Of a stretch of DNA of 64,000 nucleotides, positions 32,030 through 48,308 are shown one piece after another. The stretch spans positions 372,001 through 436,000 of the forward strand of contig NZ_CP022523.1 in assembly GCF_002850255.1 (NCBI RefSeq), read 5' to 3'. The translations under genes were made by a program, and so were the position numbers. Each line of letters opens with the position of its first letter. Position 1 is the first letter of the stretch. Below the pieces are notes generated by a model. It did no database searches, was not told the origin of the DNA, and saw only the letters and a program-made list of their open reading frames with translations. The stretch is from Pseudoalteromonas sp. NC201 (lineage in GTDB: Bacteria > Pseudomonadota > Gammaproteobacteria > Enterobacterales > Alteromonadaceae).

Positions 32030-32042
32030 GAACACATCATAC
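32030..32042 (-). promoter_or_regulatory. Ter-like site 1 (distal copy)
   Basis: GAACACATCATAC on the plus strand, i.e. GTATGATGTGTTC on the minus strand. It is identical over 13 bp to the five sites near tus and lies in the convergent gap between the HD-GYP regulator and ydiJ, 8.3 kb from the next copy. By analogy with E. coli Ter (GTATGTTGTAACTA), forks moving right to left meet the non-permissive end. Confidence 0.8.
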
Positions 32043-38905: not shown

Positions 38906-40261
38906 TTATACTGTTTTACGAGCGTCTTTTAGTAGATCAGCAACTAAAAATCCTAGCTCTAAAACTTGGTCTGCGTTTAGACGCGGATCACACTGGGTGC
39001 GGTAACGCTGAGATAAGTCTTCGTCTGATAGACCGTAGGCACCACCAACACACTCAGTGACGTGCTGCCCTGTCATTTCTAAATGCACACCACCAGGATA
39101 GCTCCCCTCAGCTTTATGCACTGCGAAGAACTGACTGATTTCTCTCAAGATATTGTTAAAACTACGTGTCTTATATCCAGTCGTCGCTTTTTCTGTGTTT
39201 CCGTGCATCGGATCCGAAGTCCAAATAACTTTGCGGCCTTCTTCTTGAATTCTACGAACTAATTTAGGCAGTTTTTCCGGCAGCACATCTGCACCCATGC
39301 GTGTGATAAGTGTTAGACGACCAGGAATATTATCAGGGTTAAGCGCATCGACAAGTTTAATTAACTCATCTTCTTGCATCCCTGGGCCAACCTTTACGCC
39401 AATAGGGTTTTTAATACCACGGAAAAATTCGATATGAGCGTGATCTAGCTGACGCGTACGTTCACCAATCCAAACAAAGTGAGCAGAACAATCGTACCAG
39501 TCCCCCGATAAGTGGTCTCGTCTAGTTAACGCTTCTTCATAACCTAACAATAGCGCTTCGTGTGAGGTATAAAGCGGAGTTTCCTTCAGGCTTGGTGCTA
39601 CTGTTGAATCAATGCCACAAACTTCCATAAACTCAAGTGCTTCTTGAATACGCTCTGCGAGTTGTTGAAATTTATCTTTTAACGGATTTGCAGCTACGAA
39701 ACTCATATTCCAGCGATTTACCTGATGCAGATCTGCAAGACCACCCTGCGCAAATGCGCGAAGTAGGTTAAGTGTTGCTGCAGACTGATGATACGCTTTC
39801 ATCAACCTATCAGGATCTGGGATACGCGCTTCTTCCGTAAACTCAAAACTATTAACGATATCACCACGGTATGAAGGTAAAGAAACACCATCAATAGTCT
39901 CAAAATCTGAAGAACGTGGCTTAGCATACTGCCCTGCCATTCGAGCGATTTTGACTACCGGGCATTTACCACCATATGTTAATACGACAGCCATTTGCAA
40001 AAGCGTCTTGAACGTATCACGAATATTAGCGGCACTAAAATCTGAAAACGATTCTGCGCAATCACCACCTTGCAATATAAAAGCTTTACCTTCGCAAACA
40101 TCTGCAAGGCTTTTATACAAGCTTCGCGTCTCTTCTGCAAAAACGAGCGGCGGTGCTGAATTTAGTTCTTTTTCAACTGATTTTAACTTCTCTGAATTTG
40201 GGTATTCAGGTTGCTGCAAGATAGGTTTATCTCTCCAGCTATTTGGGCTCCAATTAGCCAT
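38906..40261 (-). CDS. Class II 3-deoxy-7-phosphoheptulonate synthase
   Basis: A 451-aa plant-type (AroA-II) DAHP synthase that joins PEP and erythrose 4-phosphate as the first step of aromatic amino-acid synthesis. Seen: [15 protein letters not shown] (metal-site Cys), [57 protein letters not shown] and [30 protein letters not shown] precedes the ATG. E. coli has a class I AroH at the equivalent place beside ppsA/ydiA, so the position is conserved but the enzyme class differs. No trp-leader-like attenuator was recognised. Confidence 0.95.
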
Positions 40262-40356
40262 TGTATTTTCCTCATTCCAATATGTGTTACCACCATTGAA
40301 CAGTACCCCAAGCCCCCTTATTCATCAAGGAAAAACTTTAGTTTGTTTTTAACGAA

Positions 40357-40369
40357 GAACACATCATAC
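40357..40369 (-). promoter_or_regulatory. Ter-like site 2
   Basis: GAACACATCATAC on the plus strand, 13/13 identical to the other copies. It lies 96 bp upstream of the DAHP synthase start. Predicted to block forks moving right to left. Confidence 0.82.
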
Positions 40370-40513
40370 ATCTTTAGCTTTTAATAACCTGATACTTTAG
40401 CTAAACTGTTCTAGAACTTAATCAAGATATTAGACTTCTTAAGATATGGTGGTTTTTAATACATCTTTCCAGCTAGCAAAAAAGCAGACCTAAAGTTGGC
40501 GACTATCAGACTT

Positions 40514-40527
40514 GGAAGATCTGATCT
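40514..40527 (-). repeat. Possible degenerate iteron
   Basis: AGATCTGATCT at 40517-40527 equals the 11-base arm of the origin inverted repeat at 45658. Read on the minus strand with its flank, TAAAGATCAGATCT matches 13 of 14 bases of the origin iteron at 45651. A single short hit in AT-rich DNA, so chance is possible. Confidence 0.3.
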
Positions 40528-41615
40528 TTAAATCGCTATAATGAGTATCATCACCCATTTTGAGTGAATTGAAGACCTTGGAACCTATACCAGTATCAAA
40601 CATAATCTTGTCGAAGTCTTGTTTTTCACTTTGAGTGCCTTGATTAGAAGTCAATTCAAGAATTTGTGATCAAGCAGGACCCCACCTACCTCTTCAGAAA
40701 ATCATCTTACAGAGCATTTATATACAAAGATGACACACTGACTTTAGCCTATTATTATGTTAAATTGATGTTTATTTAAGTTCAGACTAGTAATTGCTGT
40801 AGTGACTCGTCGTATTTTATGAGTAGGAAGGAAGCAAGAAAAAATGAGTCTATAGTGATTGCTATGAGTACTAATCACATGTGCTATATAGTATTTGGAA
40901 GTATTAACACGTATAGGTACTTCCAACAGCTAACTCCTCCAATGAGAACTCAATGCTGAAAAATTGGGGAGATTTCTCTTCAGTGATCTGGGTTATTAAA
41001 ATAAATTTTCCTGATTAAGCTATCTTATTGAAACGGCGAGAACGCCGAACAATCTATCACTAGATAAAAATAAAACTCTACTGTCAAAAAGGTGATATTG
41101 ATTACGTAGTACTACTGAGTTTACTCTTGCCCCTCATTCTTTTCTTGATATCTAACACAACGACTTTTATTCTTACAGTATCAAGGGGTAGTCACTTTGC
41201 CTAATATAATTGGGCATAAGGTTACTCGCTTAATAGCTATTTTCATTTCCAAAACTCTCGCTAGTTTCTGGCCAGTTAGTTTCAGAGATATTTTTCCATG
41301 AACAGTTAGCTAATCTAGCTTGACTCGTTCGCAAACAAGCTGTTCAGACGCTTGAAAAGATCTCTGTCTACTTTGCTCTTTGACGATCAGACCATGAATT
41401 CAGGTGTAAAAACTATATGATATTTAAATAATAAAAGCACAGGAGACGTGTCTTCTATCTACTCGTTTTTTCCGTTATTTTAACTTCGCTACAAATCGAG
41501 TACGGCATTGACATTAGTATTTATTCCGGTGAAGTTTGAATAATAGTAAGCAATCACTGAAGTAGCTGGTTTAGTTATTATAAAGTTAGTACTAGCATTG
41601 CAACTCCGAACTGTA

Positions 41616-41644
41616 CATGTGCATGTGCATGTGCATGTGCATGT
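41616..41644. repeat. CATGTG hexanucleotide tandem repeat
   Basis: Nearly five perfect copies of CATGTG in non-coding DNA left of tus. Such short arrays can vary in number by slippage. No function is evident. Confidence 0.9.
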
Positions 41645-41844
41645 AGCAAAAGAAACTTGTGCTATAACCGTCTTCGTGTTTTAGTCAGGTACGACTACAA
41701 AAGTGCGGATGTTACTCGAAGATTCATAGCCAAGAAAAAGAAGTGGTACGATTGTTCTCTTTGAAAGTGCAAAATTAAACTCAGTGTTCTACTCTACAAT
41801 TTAGCCAATCCCTTTAAAGGATCCCAAATGATGCTTATTGCAAA

Positions 41845-41960
41845 GTGAGTACACACTTACTAACCATCTATCACCTTCCCTTTTCGGCCTAACTAGAATT
41901 TATTGAACCTTCATGCCTACGGAAAAGTGCTCGGTCGAAACAAGGTAAGTGAACACTTAC
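41845..41960. repeat. Pair of related palindromes 100 bp apart
   Basis: GTGAGTACACACTTAC (41845-41860) and GTAAGTGAACACTTAC (41945-41960; perfect seven-base arms around AA) share 12 of 16 bases and are exactly 100 bp apart. They could bind a dimeric protein. No function assigned. Confidence 0.5.
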
Positions 41961-42060
41961 TATTGTTTTTCAACACTAAAATCTTGAACCAGAAGAAGAC
42001 TCTGTCAGTATCAAAAGTTGACTTTAATTTATAAAAAAGAGTATTATCGCGAGGATAAAG

Positions 42061-42073
42061 GAACACATCATAC
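42061..42073 (-). promoter_or_regulatory. Ter-like site 3
   Basis: GAACACATCATAC on the plus strand, identical to the other copies; 201 bp from site 4. Predicted to block forks moving right to left. Confidence 0.85.
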
Positions 42074-42274
42074 AAAGTGAGATAAAACAATTTCAACTCT
42101 ACAAAACTAATTAGCAATTTCATCAAGACGACATAGAATCACTTTTCCTATTTTAAAATTCACTAGCAGATATTTTATTTCTCTAAAACCTAGACGCTCC
42201 AAATAAAAGCTTAATAAGTGAAGATAAATATGAGCTAACAGAATATTTCTGATATAATTTACATATATCTCAGG

Positions 42275-42287
42275 GAACACATCATAC
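42275..42287 (-). promoter_or_regulatory. Ter-like site 4
   Basis: GAACACATCATAC on the plus strand, identical to the other copies; 211 bp from site 5. Predicted to block forks moving right to left. Confidence 0.85.
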
Positions 42288-42498
42288 TTACAATATCAAT
42301 AAAAGTATGCATCATCACAAAATACCCACAGCTAATTGATCAAATAACTAAGTTCTCAACAACGATCGACTAAAACGATACTTAGCTTAATTTAGCAAAC
42401 GGCAAGTGATATGGTTAGTTTTTGTTCCATTAGATACTCATAATAAAATCGCTTAGCGAGATTTCATTATTTTTGATATAATTCGAGAGAGATAACAA

Positions 42499-42511
42499 GA
42501 ACACATCATAC
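42499..42511 (-). promoter_or_regulatory. Ter-like site 5, overlapping the tus translation start
   Basis: GAACACATCATAC ends one base before the tus ATG, filling the ribosome-site position (-14 to -2). In E. coli TerB overlaps the tus promoter and Tus represses itself; here the site is even closer to the start codon. It should be the first block met by a fork leaving the origin leftward. Confidence 0.88.
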
Positions 42512-42512
42512 A

Positions 42513-43379
42513 ATGAATAAATTTAATATACGTTCAACTTTCGATATTCTTAATGAACACATTAACCAGCTATGCCATGAACTGACAGAAGCCGATATAA
42601 AAAAGGCAACATTTTATGAACTGCCTGATATCAAAAAACAAGATGAAGAAACCGCTCCAACAAATATAACTGTTAAAAAAATAGAAGGTGAAAAAGCACT
42701 CTCTAAATGTTTAGATGCTTATCGCGACCTCTACTTAAACGACCGAGAAAGCGGAAAGTTGTTGCAAAGGTTTCCTGGTCTTTTGTTAGTTAATGACCCT
42801 AAAGAAGTTATCAACTCTAGGGTGAATGCAGTGAATCTTGCCAAAGAAAATTTTAAAAATGCTATTCTGGAAATTTCTAACAATGATGCCAGATTCGAAG
42901 CTGTTCATAGTGCAGTTCCTAACTTAATGACTTTGGCTGCCTATCGAAAAATACATAGCGAATCCGAAGCTCCCTATTCCGTTCGATTTACCTGGATGAA
43001 AAAACATGCAACCAGAGTTTTGAGTAAAGAACTTGCTATGGAGATGTTGAATCGCTCTTCACTATATTCAAATCCGAGGATGATAGATCAGGAAAAGTGG
43101 CAACAGCTAGTAGAACAAGAAAAATATAGAGTTTCTAGTCTATCAGAAAATGCAAAGCTCAGAATTAGAAGGCCAACCAGAGTAACACCTGAGGTGAATG
43201 TGAGATATACAGCTCAAAATCGCTATCATGTAAGTGCCGCACTTCCATTTATACTCTTTAACCCGCATCCAGACACTAAACTTGGAGAGTTAAGTCATTT
43301 TACACAAAAAGATGATCATCCAAGAAAGCGAGAGTACAACTTTCTAGTCGATAGAATTTATTTAGAAAGATTTGAGTAA
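42513..43379 (+). CDS. tus: Tus family replication terminus site-binding protein
   Basis: A 288-aa protein resembling E. coli Tus (309 aa) end to end. It binds Ter DNA and stops replication forks from one side only. Matching blocks: FYELPDIKKQDEE (E. coli FSLPEVKKEDE), RFPGLL (RLPGVL), ARFEAVHSAVPNL (ARFEWVHRHLPGL), LAAYRK (LNAYRT), RFTWMKKHATRVL (RFGWANKHIIKNL) and NAKLRIRRPTRVTP (NAKLKIKRPVKVQP). Residues of the C6 lock pocket are conserved at Phe140 and His144 (here F128, H132); Gly149 is Asn (N137) and Ile79 is Leu (L75). Arg198 aligns with R189. A Ter-like site ends one base before the ATG, suggesting autorepression. It lies between oppositely facing Ter sites, 2.1 kb from the nearest iteron. 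Confidence 0.93.
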   Translation: MNKFNIRSTFDILNEHINQLCHELTEADIKKATFYELPDIKKQDEETAPTNITVKKIEGEKALSKCLDAYRDLYLNDRESGKLLQRFPGLLLVNDPKEVINSRVNAVNLAKENFKNAILEISNNDARFEAVHSAVPNLMTLAAYRKIHSESEAPYSVRFTWMKKHATRVLSKELAMEMLNRSSLYSNPRMIDQEKWQQLVEQEKYRVSSLSENAKLRIRRPTRVTPEVNVRYTAQNRYHVSAALPFILFNPHPDTKLGELSHFTQKDDHPRKREYNFLVDRIYLERFE

Positions 43380-43485
43380 TAGTAAGGTATAATTCATACG
43401 GAATCTAACGATAGCACGCAATTTAACATAATCTTGTTGAGTTAGTATAGTCCATACAAGTGCTAACTGACTTGTCCTCATTATA

Positions 43486-43498
43486 GTATGATGTGTTC
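43486..43498 (+). promoter_or_regulatory. Ter-like site 6, opposite orientation
   Basis: GTATGATGTGTTC on the plus strand, the only copy in this orientation. It lies 106 bp past the tus stop and about 2 kb before the nearest iteron. By E. coli polarity it stops forks moving left to right, i.e. a fork that has circled the replicon, just before it re-enters rep and the origin. Confidence 0.87.
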
Positions 43499-43512
43499 TA
43501 TCCATTTTAAAA

Positions 43513-43729
43513 CTTATACCAATTAGCTTAATTAAGTGATCTCTTCTGAGGCGAAGAAAATCTTGTCGATAACACCATTACCGCATCCAGCTATCGCCAA
43601 GTTACATCCATATAGGCAAGGCGAAAATTTTTGCTATTTAGTTGTTCTAAATGAGAAATTTTTAACGCAGTTAGCATCAGATTTGCTCCTTCAAATTGAA
43701 CAAGTATCAAGGCTAATTGGTATTATAAG
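43513..43729. mobile_element. MITE-like element between tus and rep
   Basis: Inverted ends share ATACCAATTAGC (43516-43527) and GCTAATTGGTAT (43712-43723); outward both continue into CTTAT-like sequence. The interior has no transposase; the open frame inside (from 43536) has no ribosome site and is taken as non-coding. Repeats with this end and a GTTGTTCTAAATGAGAAATTTTTAACG-type core are, to my memory, common in Alteromonadales. Confidence 0.65.
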
Positions 43730-43789
43730 ACTATGATGAAATCGTTATCTTCACAGATTAAGTACTAAATTTCTTCAGGTTAAATTTTG

Positions 43790-43960
43790 ATTTATCATTA
43801 AATTTTAAGCTCTGAAATAGCTTATCGACCACGGACTCTTATCTAGAAATCACTAATAAATCATCTACTGTTGGATAACAAATTTTTTCTATTTGATTGT
43901 TCTAAATAGGAAGATTTGAATTATTGATATACTTCTCCCCTCTTCCAAGGATTAGAGAAT
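43790..43960. mobile_element. Decayed second copy of the MITE-like sequence
   Basis: TTGATTGTTCTAAATAGGAA (43886-43912 area) and CTTATCGACCACGGACTC match, with many differences, the interior of the element at 43513-43729 in the same order and orientation. It looks like an older, eroded copy. Ends are approximate. The rest of 43961-44135 shows nothing recognised. Confidence 0.4.
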
Positions 43961-44135
43961 TAATTTGATCCGCTGATGTAGTTTCAAGATTTATTTATGT
44001 CAGTATTTTCCACCACAGAAAATTTTTAAGAAGGCTTTTAGCTCTTTAGACTGCATCGTTTTTAAGAATTAGGTAGTAATATATTTCGGTCAGAAGTACC
44101 TTCAGTAGCAATAGAAATCAGCTTTGATGCTAAAG

Positions 44136-44179
44136 TTCTTTGTCTTGGCTAGAAATACTATTCTAGCCAAGACAAAGAA
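44136..44179 (-). terminator. Perfect 19-bp hairpin after rep
   Basis: The arms at 44136-44154 and 44161-44179 (TTCTTTGTCTTGGCTAGAA and its complement) pair without mismatch around a six-base loop, starting three bases past the rep stop. On the minus strand no T run follows, so it is an atypical terminator. Messenger protection or a single-strand structure used in replication are alternatives. Confidence 0.65.
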
Positions 44180-44182
44180 ATT

Positions 44183-45397
44183 TTATTTTTTAACGATTTC
44201 TTCTAATGTATCTTCATCAATTACTTCAACATTTTCAACGATCCGTTTTCCGCCTTGAATTTCGATACGTTTATGGTGTTTATTGAGAGCCAATATTTCA
44301 TCACAGAACTGAGCTGATGGGTGCATTTCGTACACATAATCAACGATTTTCCCGGACTTTTCATCCTTAACATTTGAAATATTGTATTCGGATATCGCCC
44401 CTTTCTCGATCAAATCTTTCATTGTTGTGGTCATATCACGACGAAGTGCCTTCAATTTATTCTCTGTTATTTCATCATCAGAATAAATTGAACCATACTT
44501 TTCCATAATTGAAATTAGGCGAAAATGATAAGTTTTACCTGGAGCTGCGTAACGCCATAGATGATACAAACGTAGCATCATCCAACGAGACAAACCGCGT
44601 TTTAACTCTTGAGCACTGTTGAAATAATAGCCTTTATACTCCAAGTTATCGATCATGTTATGAACAAATGCATTTAAACATGCAACACATTTGATGTTCC
44701 CACCCTGCCCTTTTTTACCACTAAAGTGTAGCGACGACAGAAAGTTCATGTTTGATTCGTAAAATGAATCATCAATACTTGGGTTTTTAGTATCTGTAGC
44801 CGTATATTTGAACGAAAGTTTAGAACCTTGAAGAGCTTCCAAAGATTCCTTAATTTGCGGATAAGGCATTGATTGACCAACAGCTTTTAATTCTTGAGCA
44901 AGCTCGTTCATCGAAAAAATAACCGCGTATTGAATACCGGACTTAAAATTTATTTTAACAATCTTACCTTTAGAAGCTAGGCGGATCAGTGCGCGCTCAA
45001 CTTTTTCTTCTCGGTCAGATGGCCAAACTAAAAACTCTTCGTCATCACCATCTCTTTTAGTACTAACAACAGCAGGGGTAATTTTTATCTCACCTTCGTA
45101 TAGAATACCATCTACTTTTTCTGATATTTTTCTCGTTACGATTGTTTTTTTGGGCGCTTCTTCTAATGGTAATTTTTTATGTCCAGAACGAACAAAGCGT
45201 CCCCATAAATCGTAATGATTAAAGGTGTTAGAATAAGCTCTTAACCCATGGGCTGCATTTTCTAAAGATACTCGAACATCTTTATTGTCCGTAAACAACG
45301 CCAAACTTTCGTTATCGATTGCACTTTCTACACCATGGATCTGTCCACGAAGTGAATCGGGCAAATTGTCAACAGAGATGTTCACCTTCCGGCTCAT
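44183..45397 (-). CDS. Chromid replication initiator protein (Rep)
   Basis: A 404-aa basic protein transcribed away from the iteron array. The middle and C-terminal parts (about 120-370) look like the tandem winged-helix layout of iteron-binding plasmid initiators: REEKVERALIRLASKGKIVK, GLSRWMMLRLYHLWRYAAPG and KALRRDMTTTMKDLIEKGAI are helix-rich DNA-binding candidates. I do not recognise it as a standard RepA/RctB. The assignment rests on position: iterons within 70 bp upstream, DnaA boxes and parAB beyond. Iterons at 45466-45553 overlap its likely promoter, so it probably represses itself. A perfect hairpin follows the stop. Confidence 0.85.
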   Translation of the reverse strand: MSRKVNISVDNLPDSLRGQIHGVESAIDNESLALFTDNKDVRVSLENAAHGLRAYSNTFNHYDLWGRFVRSGHKKLPLEEAPKKTIVTRKISEKVDGILYEGEIKITPAVVSTKRDGDDEEFLVWPSDREEKVERALIRLASKGKIVKINFKSGIQYAVIFSMNELAQELKAVGQSMPYPQIKESLEALQGSKLSFKYTATDTKNPSIDDSFYESNMNFLSSLHFSGKKGQGGNIKCVACLNAFVHNMIDNLEYKGYYFNSAQELKRGLSRWMMLRLYHLWRYAAPGKTYHFRLISIMEKYGSIYSDDEITENKLKALRRDMTTTMKDLIEKGAISEYNISNVKDEKSGKIVDYVYEMHPSAQFCDEILALNKHHKRIEIQGGKRIVENVEVIDEDTLEEIVKK

Positions 45398-45657
45398 TGT
45401 TTTACTTCCAAATTTTCATGACGTCTAATAACAACATATTCGACAGAAAAAGTTAATGATTAAAGTTAGTAAAAAAGTGATCCGAAGTAACTTTTTTTGT
45501 TGGGATCATTGTTTTACTAAGTATGGCTCATTTTCAGATCAAGTTTTTACTAACAAAGGTAAAATGAACGCTGAAAAACCTTTGTTTAAGGCATATTTAG
45601 CGGATTTACAACGGCAAATCCGACGCCCTTGTGGAAAACTAGGTCCTTAATTAGTAA

Positions 45658-45690
45658 AGATCTGATCTATGCTAGGTAGAGATCAGATCT
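45658..45690. repeat. Perfect inverted repeat in the origin
   Basis: AGATCTGATCT (45658-45668) and AGATCAGATCT (45680-45690) are perfect complements with an 11-base spacer. The left arm is the tail of an iteron. A further AGATCAGATCT is at 45861-45871. Dimeric Rep binding is a reasonable guess. The arms are rich in GATC, so Dam-type methylation could matter if the host has Dam. Confidence 0.75.
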
Positions 45691-45724
45691 ATACATACCT
45701 TAAAGCACTTGATCTTATATCACC

Positions 45725-45733
45725 TGTGCATAA
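45725..45733 (-). promoter_or_regulatory. DnaA box
   Basis: TGTGCATAA, i.e. TTATGCACA on the minus strand, fits the TTATNCACA consensus. It lies between iterons. Confidence 0.7.
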
Positions 45734-45790
45734 CTGTTTGATCTTACTTGGTAAAAAATCGATCCCAACCACCACAACTGTGAGTAATTC

Positions 45791-45799
45791 TGTGTATAA
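45791..45799 (-). promoter_or_regulatory. DnaA box
   Basis: TGTGTATAA, i.e. TTATACACA on the minus strand, a full-consensus DnaA box 66 bp from the first and in the same orientation, next to an AT-rich tract. Confidence 0.75.
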
Positions 45800-46042
45800 G
45801 CTGTTTATATATAACTTTTTGAAATAGTAGTTAGTAAAATTTCGATCTGGGAGTTATAAGAGATCAGATCTTAACCTAGTAAAAAGTAGATCTATGAAAA
45901 TTAAAAAAAGTCATGTAAAACAGTTGGATAGAATATAATTTCTTTGCCTTAGCCTTTAATACCTATATATCTAACCATATCTAAACTTTCTTATTTATAC
46001 TTAGATGTAAATCAAAATTACAAATGTCTTTGTTTTTTTGTG

Positions 46043-46071
46043 TTTACAGCAAAATATATGGACATTATAAT
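46043..46071 (+). promoter_or_regulatory. Sigma-70 type promoter of parAB
   Basis: TTTACA (46043-46048) and TATAAT (46066-46071) are separated by 17 bp, close to consensus. The parA start at 46100 is 28 bp beyond the -10 box. Confidence 0.75.
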
Positions 46072-46099
46072 AATCGTTATCAAATAAAGGATAATGTGT

Positions 46100-47332
46100 A
46101 TGTCTATAAATAACAATGCGCTATCAACGTACCGGCTGTTGAAAGCTACAGCAGAAGTAGCAGAACAATCACTTGCTGGTCGTATTCAACATTATAGAGC
46201 TCATCTTAAAACTGAAGAAAAAGAGCTTAGAACTTACACTCAAAAAGCTGCTGCAGATCTACTTGGTGTGAATAATAGAACACTCAAAAGACGTCATGAC
46301 CAAGGTGACTTTGATACCATCAATATAAAGAAAGGCGCAAACGGTCATTATGCATACACATTAGCAAATATCTTTGCGATGGCAGATGTTCTGGGTGTAA
46401 ATGCTGATCAACGAAAGCCTAGCGATAAATTACAAGTCATTGTGATTAATAGTTTGAAAGGCGGTTGTGGTAAAACAACAAGTTTGGTGAATATCGCAGC
46501 AGCTCTAGCTACAACTAATATTAAGCGCTATCGCATCGGGATCATTGATCTTGATCCGCAAGGATCATCATCAAGCTTTTTTCCATCTAATGATCATGAA
46601 CCGATCACAGTTGGTGATCTGATGAGAGATTGCATCGAATTAGATGAAGGTGAAACATGGAAAGATCTTGTCTCTAATTCATTCCAAGAAACCCACATTC
46701 CAAATATTCGCGTATTACCTTCTGGTATGGATGACTTTTACTTTGAACACGAAACAGCAACAGAGTTAAAAGAAAGTTCCAGCTACGAAAAGACACGTCA
46801 TTACCATAAGCTTAAAGAGAAGGTTATAGAGCCCGTACAAGACGAGTTTGATATTATCCTAGTAGATACCGCGCCTTCACTTAATTTTATGTTCTATAAC
46901 GCATTGATGGCGTCTACGGCTATGTTAATACCTGTACATCCAGAGGCCGTAGACTTCGACGCTAATAATAAATATCTGAAACGTCTTGGTGAGATATACC
47001 ATACCGTTGCTGCTCTTGGTCACGAAGGCTGGGACTTTATGCAATTTTTAGTCACTAACTATGTTAAAGGCAATCATTCTCAGCGCGATATCGTTAAAGA
47101 TGTACGTAGTGCTTTTGGCCGTCAAGTAATGAGTTATCCAATCAATCACAGCTCTGCAATTACGGCGAGCTCTTCATCGTTTAACACTATTTTTGATCAA
47201 AAGACTTCTGATAGTTTAGCAAGTCGCGAAGCATTGCTAAAAGCGCAAGAAAATATCAAAGACGTGGTTGATGAATTAGAAATGCTGATCCGTTCAAATT
47301 GGCCTTCAACACAGTCTTCGCTAGCAGAATAA
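46100..47332 (+). CDS. parA: ParA partition ATPase (type Ia, with N-terminal HTH)
   Basis: A 410-aa Walker-type ATPase that positions the replicon before division. The N-terminal part (about 1-105) holds a helix-turn-helix for autoregulation (AADLLGVNNRTLKRRHDQGD), followed by the deviant Walker A KGGCGKTTS, LDPQGSSSSFF (A'), and IILVDTAPSLNFM (Walker B). The frame opens at 46094, but AAGGA (46087-46091) is eight bases from the ATG at 46100 and only two from 46094, so 46100 is used. Large type Ia ParA proteins are typical of low-copy plasmids and chromids. parB follows after 13 bp. Confidence 0.94.
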   Translation: MSINNNALSTYRLLKATAEVAEQSLAGRIQHYRAHLKTEEKELRTYTQKAAADLLGVNNRTLKRRHDQGDFDTINIKKGANGHYAYTLANIFAMADVLGVNADQRKPSDKLQVIVINSLKGGCGKTTSLVNIAAALATTNIKRYRIGIIDLDPQGSSSSFFPSNDHEPITVGDLMRDCIELDEGETWKDLVSNSFQETHIPNIRVLPSGMDDFYFEHETATELKESSSYEKTRHYHKLKEKVIEPVQDEFDIILVDTAPSLNFMFYNALMASTAMLIPVHPEAVDFDANNKYLKRLGEIYHTVAALGHEGWDFMQFLVTNYVKGNHSQRDIVKDVRSAFGRQVMSYPINHSSAITASSSSFNTIFDQKTSDSLASREALLKAQENIKDVVDELEMLIRSNWPSTQSSLAE

Positions 47333-47345
47333 AAGGGTATTAATA

Positions 47346-48308
47346 ATGGCTAGAAAACGTAAAAATGACACTCGAATAGATCCTTTTGCTACTGCGGTTG
47401 AAGGCAGTAGCCTCGACGATCTTTTAGATCAGGCGAAAGTAGGTGATGTGGTTACTATGCCTGCGCCAAGCGATCCGACAAAAACCATAGTACTGACCTG
47501 TGAAGTGGTACCGTTTAGCGAAATTGAGAGTAAAACCACAGTTTATGGGCAGAATCGCCGTGAGCAATCCCTATTAAGCGAAAAAGCGGTCGCAGATATA
47601 TTACCTGCCATTAAAAAAGATAAACGTAATCTCCACCCTGCCCTATGTTGGCAGCACAATGGCAAACTTCACGTTTTATCGGGTTCTAGACGCCGTAAAG
47701 CCTGTATGCTGGCCGAAGCGGATTATGTGGTGTTGAGCTCGAAAGACTTTAGTGATGAAGATGCAAAAACATTAGCGGTATCTTCCGATCAATACATCGC
47801 CCCGAGCCTTTGGGAATTGGGTAAAGCCTATTTTGATACTAAGCATAACTTGATCAAACAAGGCCAAAAAGGATCGTATCGAGAAATCGCTGCCGTGGAA
47901 GGTGTTTCTCACACAGCTATCGCAGACGCGTTGAAAGCTTATGAAAGTATTCCGGTCGAAGTATTGCAGTTGTATCCAACGGCAAATCATTTAGGCCGTG
48001 AAGCAGCTAAAAAGCTCATCACAGCAAAACAAGAACAGCCTGAGCAGTTTTCAGAGCAAATTGCCGCACTAAAAGCGCAAGACTTTATGACAGAAGAGAT
48101 GTCGGACGAGAAACGTGCTGTTCAGATCACTAAATTCTTGACCACATTCGGAAGTAGCGATTCACGTGTCGAATCCATGCTAGAGAACGACTACATTCGA
48201 GTACAGAGAAATCTAAAGAGTGGTGATGTTACCGTGAAAATAGATAATCGAGTATTGACTGATAAGCGTCTGGAACAATTGCAAAAGCTGCTAAGTAGTT
48301 ATAATTAA
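47346..48308 (+). CDS. parB: ParB-family partition protein
   Basis: A 320-aa centromere-binding protein acting with ParA. The N-terminal region carries the ParB nuclease-like CTP-binding domain (YGQNRREQSLLSEKA, KLHVLSGSRRRKACMLAEAD), then a helix-turn-helix around YREIAAVEGVSHTAIADALK (about 177-198) and a C-terminal dimerisation part. It is cotranscribed with parA and ended by a terminator. The cognate parS could not be identified by eye. Confidence 0.93.
   Translation: MARKRKNDTRIDPFATAVEGSSLDDLLDQAKVGDVVTMPAPSDPTKTIVLTCEVVPFSEIESKTTVYGQNRREQSLLSEKAVADILPAIKKDKRNLHPALCWQHNGKLHVLSGSRRRKACMLAEADYVVLSSKDFSDEDAKTLAVSSDQYIAPSLWELGKAYFDTKHNLIKQGQKGSYREIAAVEGVSHTAIADALKAYESIPVEVLQLYPTANHLGREAAKKLITAKQEQPEQFSEQIAALKAQDFMTEEMSDEKRAVQITKFLTTFGSSDSRVESMLENDYIRVQRNLKSGDVTVKIDNRVLTDKRLEQLQKLLSSYN

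Follow-up and report, generated by a model that had tools for sequence, protein, structure and literature searches.

E. coli Ter sites stop replication forks arriving at their G(6) end (PMC8707476; PMC10331603). The type I fork traps of Edwardsiella and Dickeya are chromosomal termini opposite the origin, with the tus-vicinal Ter innermost (PMC8707476), and in plasmid R1 the sites terRL and terRR lie beside the origin, one stopping the early fork almost at once and the other the long fork, in a one-way mode of replication (PMC10331603). Pseudoalteromonas chromids also replicate one-way according to Xie et al. 2021 (PMC7858055), and a one-way marker-frequency slope is given for Chr2 of P. translucida in PMC13342612, the available text of which makes no mention of Tus. 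As far as the accessible portions of the papers go, tus has been reported beside the chromid origin (PMC6549158) and a cluster tus-repA-parA2B2 beside ori2 has been described for the genus (PMC7858055). A search for ter with the E. coli consensus failed in P. tunicata (PMC7858055), the ter site in the scheme of a 2023 review carries a question mark (PMC10331603), and PMC8347550 speculates on an R1-like mode and on a ter in the tus promoter. No ter site for the genus is given in the accessible portions of PMC12053903, PMC12809603, PMC8707476 and PMC8496264; the literature covered is mostly open access, and priority is not certain.

Here we put forward a 13-mer, GTATGATGTGTTC, as a strong candidate for the ter site that has been missing from Pseudoalteromonas. 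Judged from sequence comparison, it is very probably the Ter of Pseudoalteromonas, with a single chromid-borne Tus serving both an R1-like barrier at ori2 and a trap on the main chromosome (C1). The finding links plasmid R1-type barriers to chromosomal fork traps.

A Tus homologue and six identical 13-mers on the chromid

The window, the whole stretch of 64,000 nucleotides analysed, is C2:372001-436000 of Pseudoalteromonas sp. NC201 and lies within a 1.24 Mb chromid; the genome consists of two contigs (C1, 4,134,317 bases; C2, 1,244,003 bases), 5.38 Mb in all. The original prediction was of a Tus homologue with six identical 13-mers, five facing one way and one the other, and tus between the two innermost. 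Each element was confirmed: the six copies of GTATGATGTGTTC are exact, while 0/100 dinucleotide-preserving shuffles of the window contained even one, and strands and coordinates place the tus ORF between the innermost copies (Table 1). The protein matches the Pfam Ter/Tus family PF05472 at E 1.1e-77 and E. coli Tus (1ECR) at E 8.1e-27. Its gene is the one tus match of the genome, on C2, and its closest record in a plasmid collection is a P. piscicida replicon (99.3%).

Clustering here in consistent orientation had been anticipated, as opposed to many randomly oriented copies genome-wide. At ≤1 mismatch the whole 5.38 Mb genome contains eight, all exact and none with one mismatch, of which six are in the window. 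The remaining two are on C1, at 2032664 (-) and 2072542 (+), 40 kb apart near the middle of the contig, and a dif-like site (dif1) lies between them at 2058478. In this context the idea of a complete fork trap on a secondary replicon takes on another meaning. A Tus-Ter trap on the 1.24 Mb chromid is supported, but it is not the whole system, as two more sites flank dif1 on C1, and it adjoins ori2, unlike a terminus, which would face the origin from the far side. The prediction had not included the presumed ori2, which lies 1.9-2.6 kb right of the trap in the gap from rep to parA.

Table 1. Coordinates of the Ter-like sites, tus and the presumed ori2 region in the window
Feature	Position	Strand	Basis
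Ter-like 13-mer, outermost of five facing ori2	32030..32042	-	exact match to GTATGATGTGTTC
Ter-like 13-mer	40357..40369	-	exact match
Ter-like 13-mer	42061..42073	-	exact match
Ter-like 13-mer	42275..42287	-	exact match
Ter-like 13-mer, one base before tus start codon	42499..42511	-	exact match
tus, replication terminator protein, 288 aa	42513..43379	+	PF05472; 1ECR; single genome match
Ter-like 13-mer, opposite orientation	43486..43498	+	exact match
Putative chromid initiator gene repA	44183..45397	-	no Pfam match; position and described cluster
Probable ori2, intergenic, repeats around TTAGTAAA and GATC	45398..46093	.	function inferred from position
parA2	46094..47332	+	AAA_31 and ParA-type matches
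parB2	47346..48308	+	by position after parA; no Pfam match

The putative names repA and ori2 are used in the window because the tus-repA-parA2B2 cluster has been described beside ori2 (PMC7858055). The gene order around tus is the same in NZ_CP013139, the chromid of Pseudoalteromonas sp. Bsw20308, where a gene annotated as 'hypothetical protein' beside tus and parA occupies the repA position and a 'transcriptional regulator' is annotated at the place of parB2. The 42499 site is likely both an autoregulatory site and the first barrier to a fork leaving ori2 leftward, and the plus site at 43486 would stop the long fork arriving from the left. A hairpin of 19 pairs with a T-rich tail (window 44136-44179) lies between the trap and the end of repA; no RNA family reached its gathering score in window 40000-47000.

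The genus core as a putative Ter with its own sequence

Compared with E. coli Ter, taken in the letters given in the original prediction, 8/14 positions of the genus core are identical, a level that 1% of random 14-mers reach. The lock-end G is retained, and the first 9 bases agree in 8 places (GTATG-TGT); the differences fall at positions 11 and 15-19, so that over the E. coli core (positions 6 and 8-18) the genus has its own version, in line with what had been foreseen. This modest likeness would explain the failed consensus search in PMC7858055.

In the protein, F128, H132 and L138 align with Phe140, His144 and Leu150 of E. coli Tus and are invariant in 11 aligned genus members, and Asn137 aligns with Gly149 of E. 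coli Tus. We take these positions to be the cytosine(6) pocket of E. coli Tus. The system shares with E. coli Tus-Ter the protein family, few short non-palindromic sites that converge around dif, a site beside the tus start and the lock-end bases. It differs in its core, in having tus on another replicon than the chromosomal trap (own genome) and in having mostly one exact site on each side of dif.

The 13-mer is conserved throughout the genus and oriented at tus

The exact 13-mer is present in 108/108 Pseudoalteromonas genomes, and the reversed string matches in 3/108. Outside the genus but within the order, a single copy was found in 11/293 genomes versus 7/293 for the reversed string. PF05472 is present in 107/108 genus genomes and in 15/147 sampled family genomes, five of those 15 being genus members. 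Flanks were compared at 71 distinct sites (own genome plus 30 more), whose 13 core bases were fixed by the search itself; they have A/T before the core and pyrimidines at the two next places and are otherwise not conserved.

Sites occur near tus, on the same contig and within about 13 kb, in 103/107 tus-bearing genomes; this tally left out sites far from tus on its contig (G044, G099 and G073:C1:2973). Every one of the ori2-facing sites near tus (257/257) is upstream of the gene, with one to six per chromid in rows pointing all one way. Sites of the opposite orientation number 33, one each in 33 genomes, and always stand on the ori2 side of at least one ori2-facing site, whereas 70/103 genomes have ori2-facing sites alone, lacking a plus site in the vicinity of tus. 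Stopping the long fork at a plus site is thus not a general feature of these chromids. The number of sites showed no link with chromid length over 11 chromids (Spearman 0.24, P 0.47).

The position of ori2 downstream of tus in the other genus genomes is assumed from 61 named tus loci, which overlap in species with the 107-genome set and in which a rep gene lies downstream of tus on the minus strand in 60/61. All 61 carry at least one site upstream, with copies up to 10 kb away. In total, 139 ori2-facing and 13 opposite-kind sites are upstream of tus and four of the opposite kind downstream. In 56/61 loci no more than about 155 bp separate the nearest site from the beginning of the Tus match, and by position a putative Ter stands beside the tus start.

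This closeness, down to one base in the window, is what would be expected if the sites at tus were simply an operator through which Tus represses its own gene, with no fork arrest on the chromid. Such an operator needs neither a fixed orientation nor copies up to 10 kb off, yet the rows reach six sites and all point one way. We therefore regard a purely regulatory role as very unlikely, and the copies on C1 bear on it further (see below).

The putative barrier at ori2 has a close counterpart in R1. By geometry the two share a trap close to the origin, here about 2-3 kb from the presumed ori2, and one orientation that faces the early fork. Plasmid R1 uses the Tus of its host and has one site each way, whereas here tus is on the replicon itself, one to six sites face ori2, and a counterpart of terRR is near tus in 33/103 chromids and absent in 70/103. 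With type I fork traps the locus shares a tus-vicinal innermost Ter, a narrow extent and few sites. It differs from them in that the tus-vicinal trap is beside an origin and the own C1 trap is without tus: the gene is on C2 and not at the C1 pair, where the innermost terminus sites are.

Convergent sites around dif point to E. coli-like polarity

An E. coli-like dif pattern gave one match, with three mismatches, and was abandoned. A second pattern, derived from the own genome's two dif-like sites, matches in 101/108 genus genomes. Contigs with a site and a dif match and without the chromid tus were tallied, the dif matches listed reaching G104. Among the dif matches listed, 151/151 entered sites from 88 genomes obey the order (-)dif(+), although one contig in this tally, from G096, may be a chromid. 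Both sides of dif are occupied in 60 genomes, with the innermost sites 20.9-231 kb apart (median 45.8 kb). Together with the eight copies of the own genome, this is the picture of few, non-palindromic, convergent sites around a terminus.

The tally omits 20/108 genomes, for which the listings gave no suitable contig or which were not entered, and contigs lacking both tus and a listed dif contributed no sites to it. Among the omitted genomes, G029:C55, G030:C48 and G038:C34 would fit (-)dif(+). Five omitted contigs have the opposite arrangement (G029:C3, G030:C2, G038:C1, G039:C28 and G092:C1; 9 sites). We read these as chromid pieces, since dif2 beyond the tus-side row is the chromid arrangement; any chromosomal one among them would break the (-)dif(+) rule. 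Of the chromids worked out from the listings, five (G007, G041, G052, G055 and G062) have dif2 9.7-11.5 kb past the last site of the row, counting outward from ori2; the distance is about 80 kb in G032 and 90-138 kb in G000, G018, G045, G046 and G098. In the own genome, dif2 (G000:C2:279955) is 124 kb beyond the row of sites, a distance that counts against the reading proposed here.

The chromosomal order also argues against sites that serve as an operator alone, as the C1 copies have no adjacent tus and the (-)dif(+) arrangement holds in all tallied cases. It bears equally on polarity. With E. coli-like polarity, the chromosomal pairs are ordinary traps around dif1, and the row upstream of tus would block the leftward fork from ori2 and let the long fork pass. 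Were the polarity the reverse, the sites would bar forks from whatever lies between them, so that neither fork could enter the dif1 region in the 60 genomes where both sides are occupied, or window 32.0-43.5 kb. The departures from the E. coli core at positions 11 and 15-19 might be taken to allow such a reversal, but the lock-end G is kept, as are the Phe and His that align with E. coli Tus Phe140 and His144, and this is the least probable of the alternatives considered here. The argument from geometry by which E. coli-like polarity was originally proposed for the window holds, and the chromosomal pairs agree with it independently, so that the comparative evidence as a whole supports this polarity.

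The places of the sites, flanking dif1 and in five chromids 9.7-11.5 kb from dif2, could also suit a different ligand of the 13-mer, such as a segregation or dimer-resolution factor, with tus nearby only by chance. The 13-mer resembles the lock half of E. coli Ter, however, its copies are few and convergent, and one stands beside the tus start as does E. coli TerB (PMC8707476). In addition, G003, a genome in one contig and without tus, keeps an exact site to the right of dif and a core-mismatch site to the left, as if a chromosomal trap were decaying after loss of the chromid-borne tus. A different binding protein is thus very unlikely indeed, and Tus is the preferred ligand in what follows.

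One clade lacks sites at tus, and its two complete chromids have bidirectional skew

Four genomes with tus have no exact site near it (G044, G063, G096 and G099), and the fetched surroundings of their tus genes contain no 13-mer at ≤2 mismatches. In a tree of 31/107 Tus proteins the four form one clade with support 100/100. The two complete members, G044 and G099, have chromids of 1,618,489 and 1,598,238 bases, both with bidirectional GC skew (20 and 19 samples, respectively). In G044, the pair 825066(-)/926045(+) is across the chromid from tus (75930) and has a dif-like site within it, at 862565 with 3 mismatches; the outgoing fork would be let through at a third site, 304188(-). In G099, 737392(-) and a one-mismatch copy at 849849(+) lie around the skew switch; no dif was seen in the G099 samples.

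Xie et al. 2021 (PMC7858055) give sizes of 1.60-1.67 Mb for bidirectional chromids and 0.64-1.39 Mb for one-way ones, and report that the bidirectional mode arose once. By size, skew and single origin only, we equate the clade with these bidirectional chromids, the P. spongiae group. The shift of sites in this one clade accompanies the change to bidirectional skew. On comparative evidence, we take the 13-mer and Tus to be a real Tus-Ter system with its own core and a new arrangement that includes, in one clade, a trap opposite the origin. The main chromosomes G044 C1, G099 C1 and G061 C1 contain no exact 13-mer, and the clade that lacks Ter at tus may have lost its chromosomal trap.

GC skew and the proposed mode of replication

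On C1, GC skew is positive in 11 samples to 2.01 Mb, about zero between the two sites, negative in the next seven samples and slightly positive in the last (4.11 Mb); on C2, it is positive in 19/20 samples round the circle. Judged by these patterns, replication of C1, the origin of which was placed by skew and not by gene, seems to be bidirectional and to end at the pair, and that of C2 seems to be one-way, clockwise. At finer scale, within the window, the skew is mostly negative at about 392-417 kb of C2 and positive in 8/9 2-kb bins to the right of that.

Raw GC skew was considered as a marker of the place where a leftward fork stops and was rejected, since it stays negative past all sites. 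In the own chromid it is negative to about 25 kb left of ori2, which counts against the model proposed here, and in the named loci taken together most distances within 9 kb to the left of tus still show a slightly negative value. At fourfold sites, the plus-strand skew is positive left of the sites, in 49/49 loci for ppsA, 36/49 for the next gene and 31/51 for the DAHP synthase gene. It is positive in just 10/61 loci at tus, 15/60 at rep, 9/59 at parA and 11/59 at parB, and in 33/58 at the helicase gene. This switch on the left fits a barrier at tus. The values of parA and parB, genes to the right of the presumed ori2, are in most loci those of leftward-copied genes, which is at odds with an origin in the rep-parA gap. 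Both comparisons are confounded by codon usage, and ppsA and other highly expressed genes are probably confounded; for these reasons fourfold skew is used as a hint only. In the window itself, fourfold skew is -0.379 at tus, -0.15 at rep, +0.067 at parA and 0.0 at parB. Its DAHP synthase gene (-0.309) goes against the pooled trend, and its parA departs from the leftward-copied skew seen in most of the 59 loci.

The sites, with their genus-wide conservation, orientation and places, are consistent with the following scheme, as are the homology of Tus and the skew of the two contigs. Tus from the chromid would bind GTATGATGTGTTC, usually with A/T before and two pyrimidines after, and stop a replisome arriving at the G (5') end. 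RepA would open ori2, from which two forks would start. The minus sites upstream of tus would halt the leftward fork within about 3 kb and keep it waiting, and the rightward fork would copy the whole circle, return from the left through the permissive faces and fuse with the waiting fork. A plus site, where present, would keep the returning fork from re-entering ori2, and the site adjoining the tus start codon would probably also repress tus. In trans, the same Tus would act on C1 at one minus and one plus site enclosing dif1. Because the trap adjoins ori2, its main job on the chromid is probably to halt the leftward fork at once and so make replication one-way.

The orientation of the 13-mers thus predicts two forks, one held beside the origin, which is one of the two possibilities of Xie et al. 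The other is that ori2 fires a single rightward fork by the nature of its initiator, with the sites at tus catching the returning fork or acting as a backup. PMC7858055 leaves the choice between one and two forks open, and the fourfold skew of parA and parB is not what two forks leaving a simple origin in the rep-parA gap would be expected to give. To catch a returning fork, however, plus sites are needed, and 257/290 of the sites near tus face the other way and 70/103 genomes have no plus site there. Moreover, the ori2-facing sites are absent in just the clade whose two complete members show bidirectional skew. We consider a one-fork ori2 unlikely.

Two forks with an early barrier remain the preferred reading, and it is reasonably probable that Ter placement sets whether a chromid replicates one-way or two-way. 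The row beside ori2 would hold one of the two forks for the whole round, loss of the row and a pair opposite ori2 would have made the bidirectional chromids, and a single Tus of plasmid origin would run both the barrier and the C1 trap, a state between R1 and the E. coli chromosome.

The row of sites and further tus genes

Tandem duplication of a promoter-Ter unit was tried as a source of the row. Among the units at 42061, 42275 and 42499, 2/3 pairs outscore every one of 200 shuffles, as do 5/15 of the pairs that the six units allow, some of them far apart. Nothing firm follows on duplication, because distant pairs score too and the shared 13-mer adds to the scores. In window 41890-42530, the stretches before the 42061 and 42275 sites are slightly more similar to the stretch upstream of tus than shuffles are. 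To judge from these likenesses, the row of sites at tus may perhaps have grown by duplication.

A second, distant tus (E 7e-29 to 5e-47) is present on another contig in G005, G007, G013, G020, G030, G037, G038, G063, G070, G074, G087 and G103. Genes similar to this second tus occur on plasmids, for example NZ_MN400773 of TAC125.
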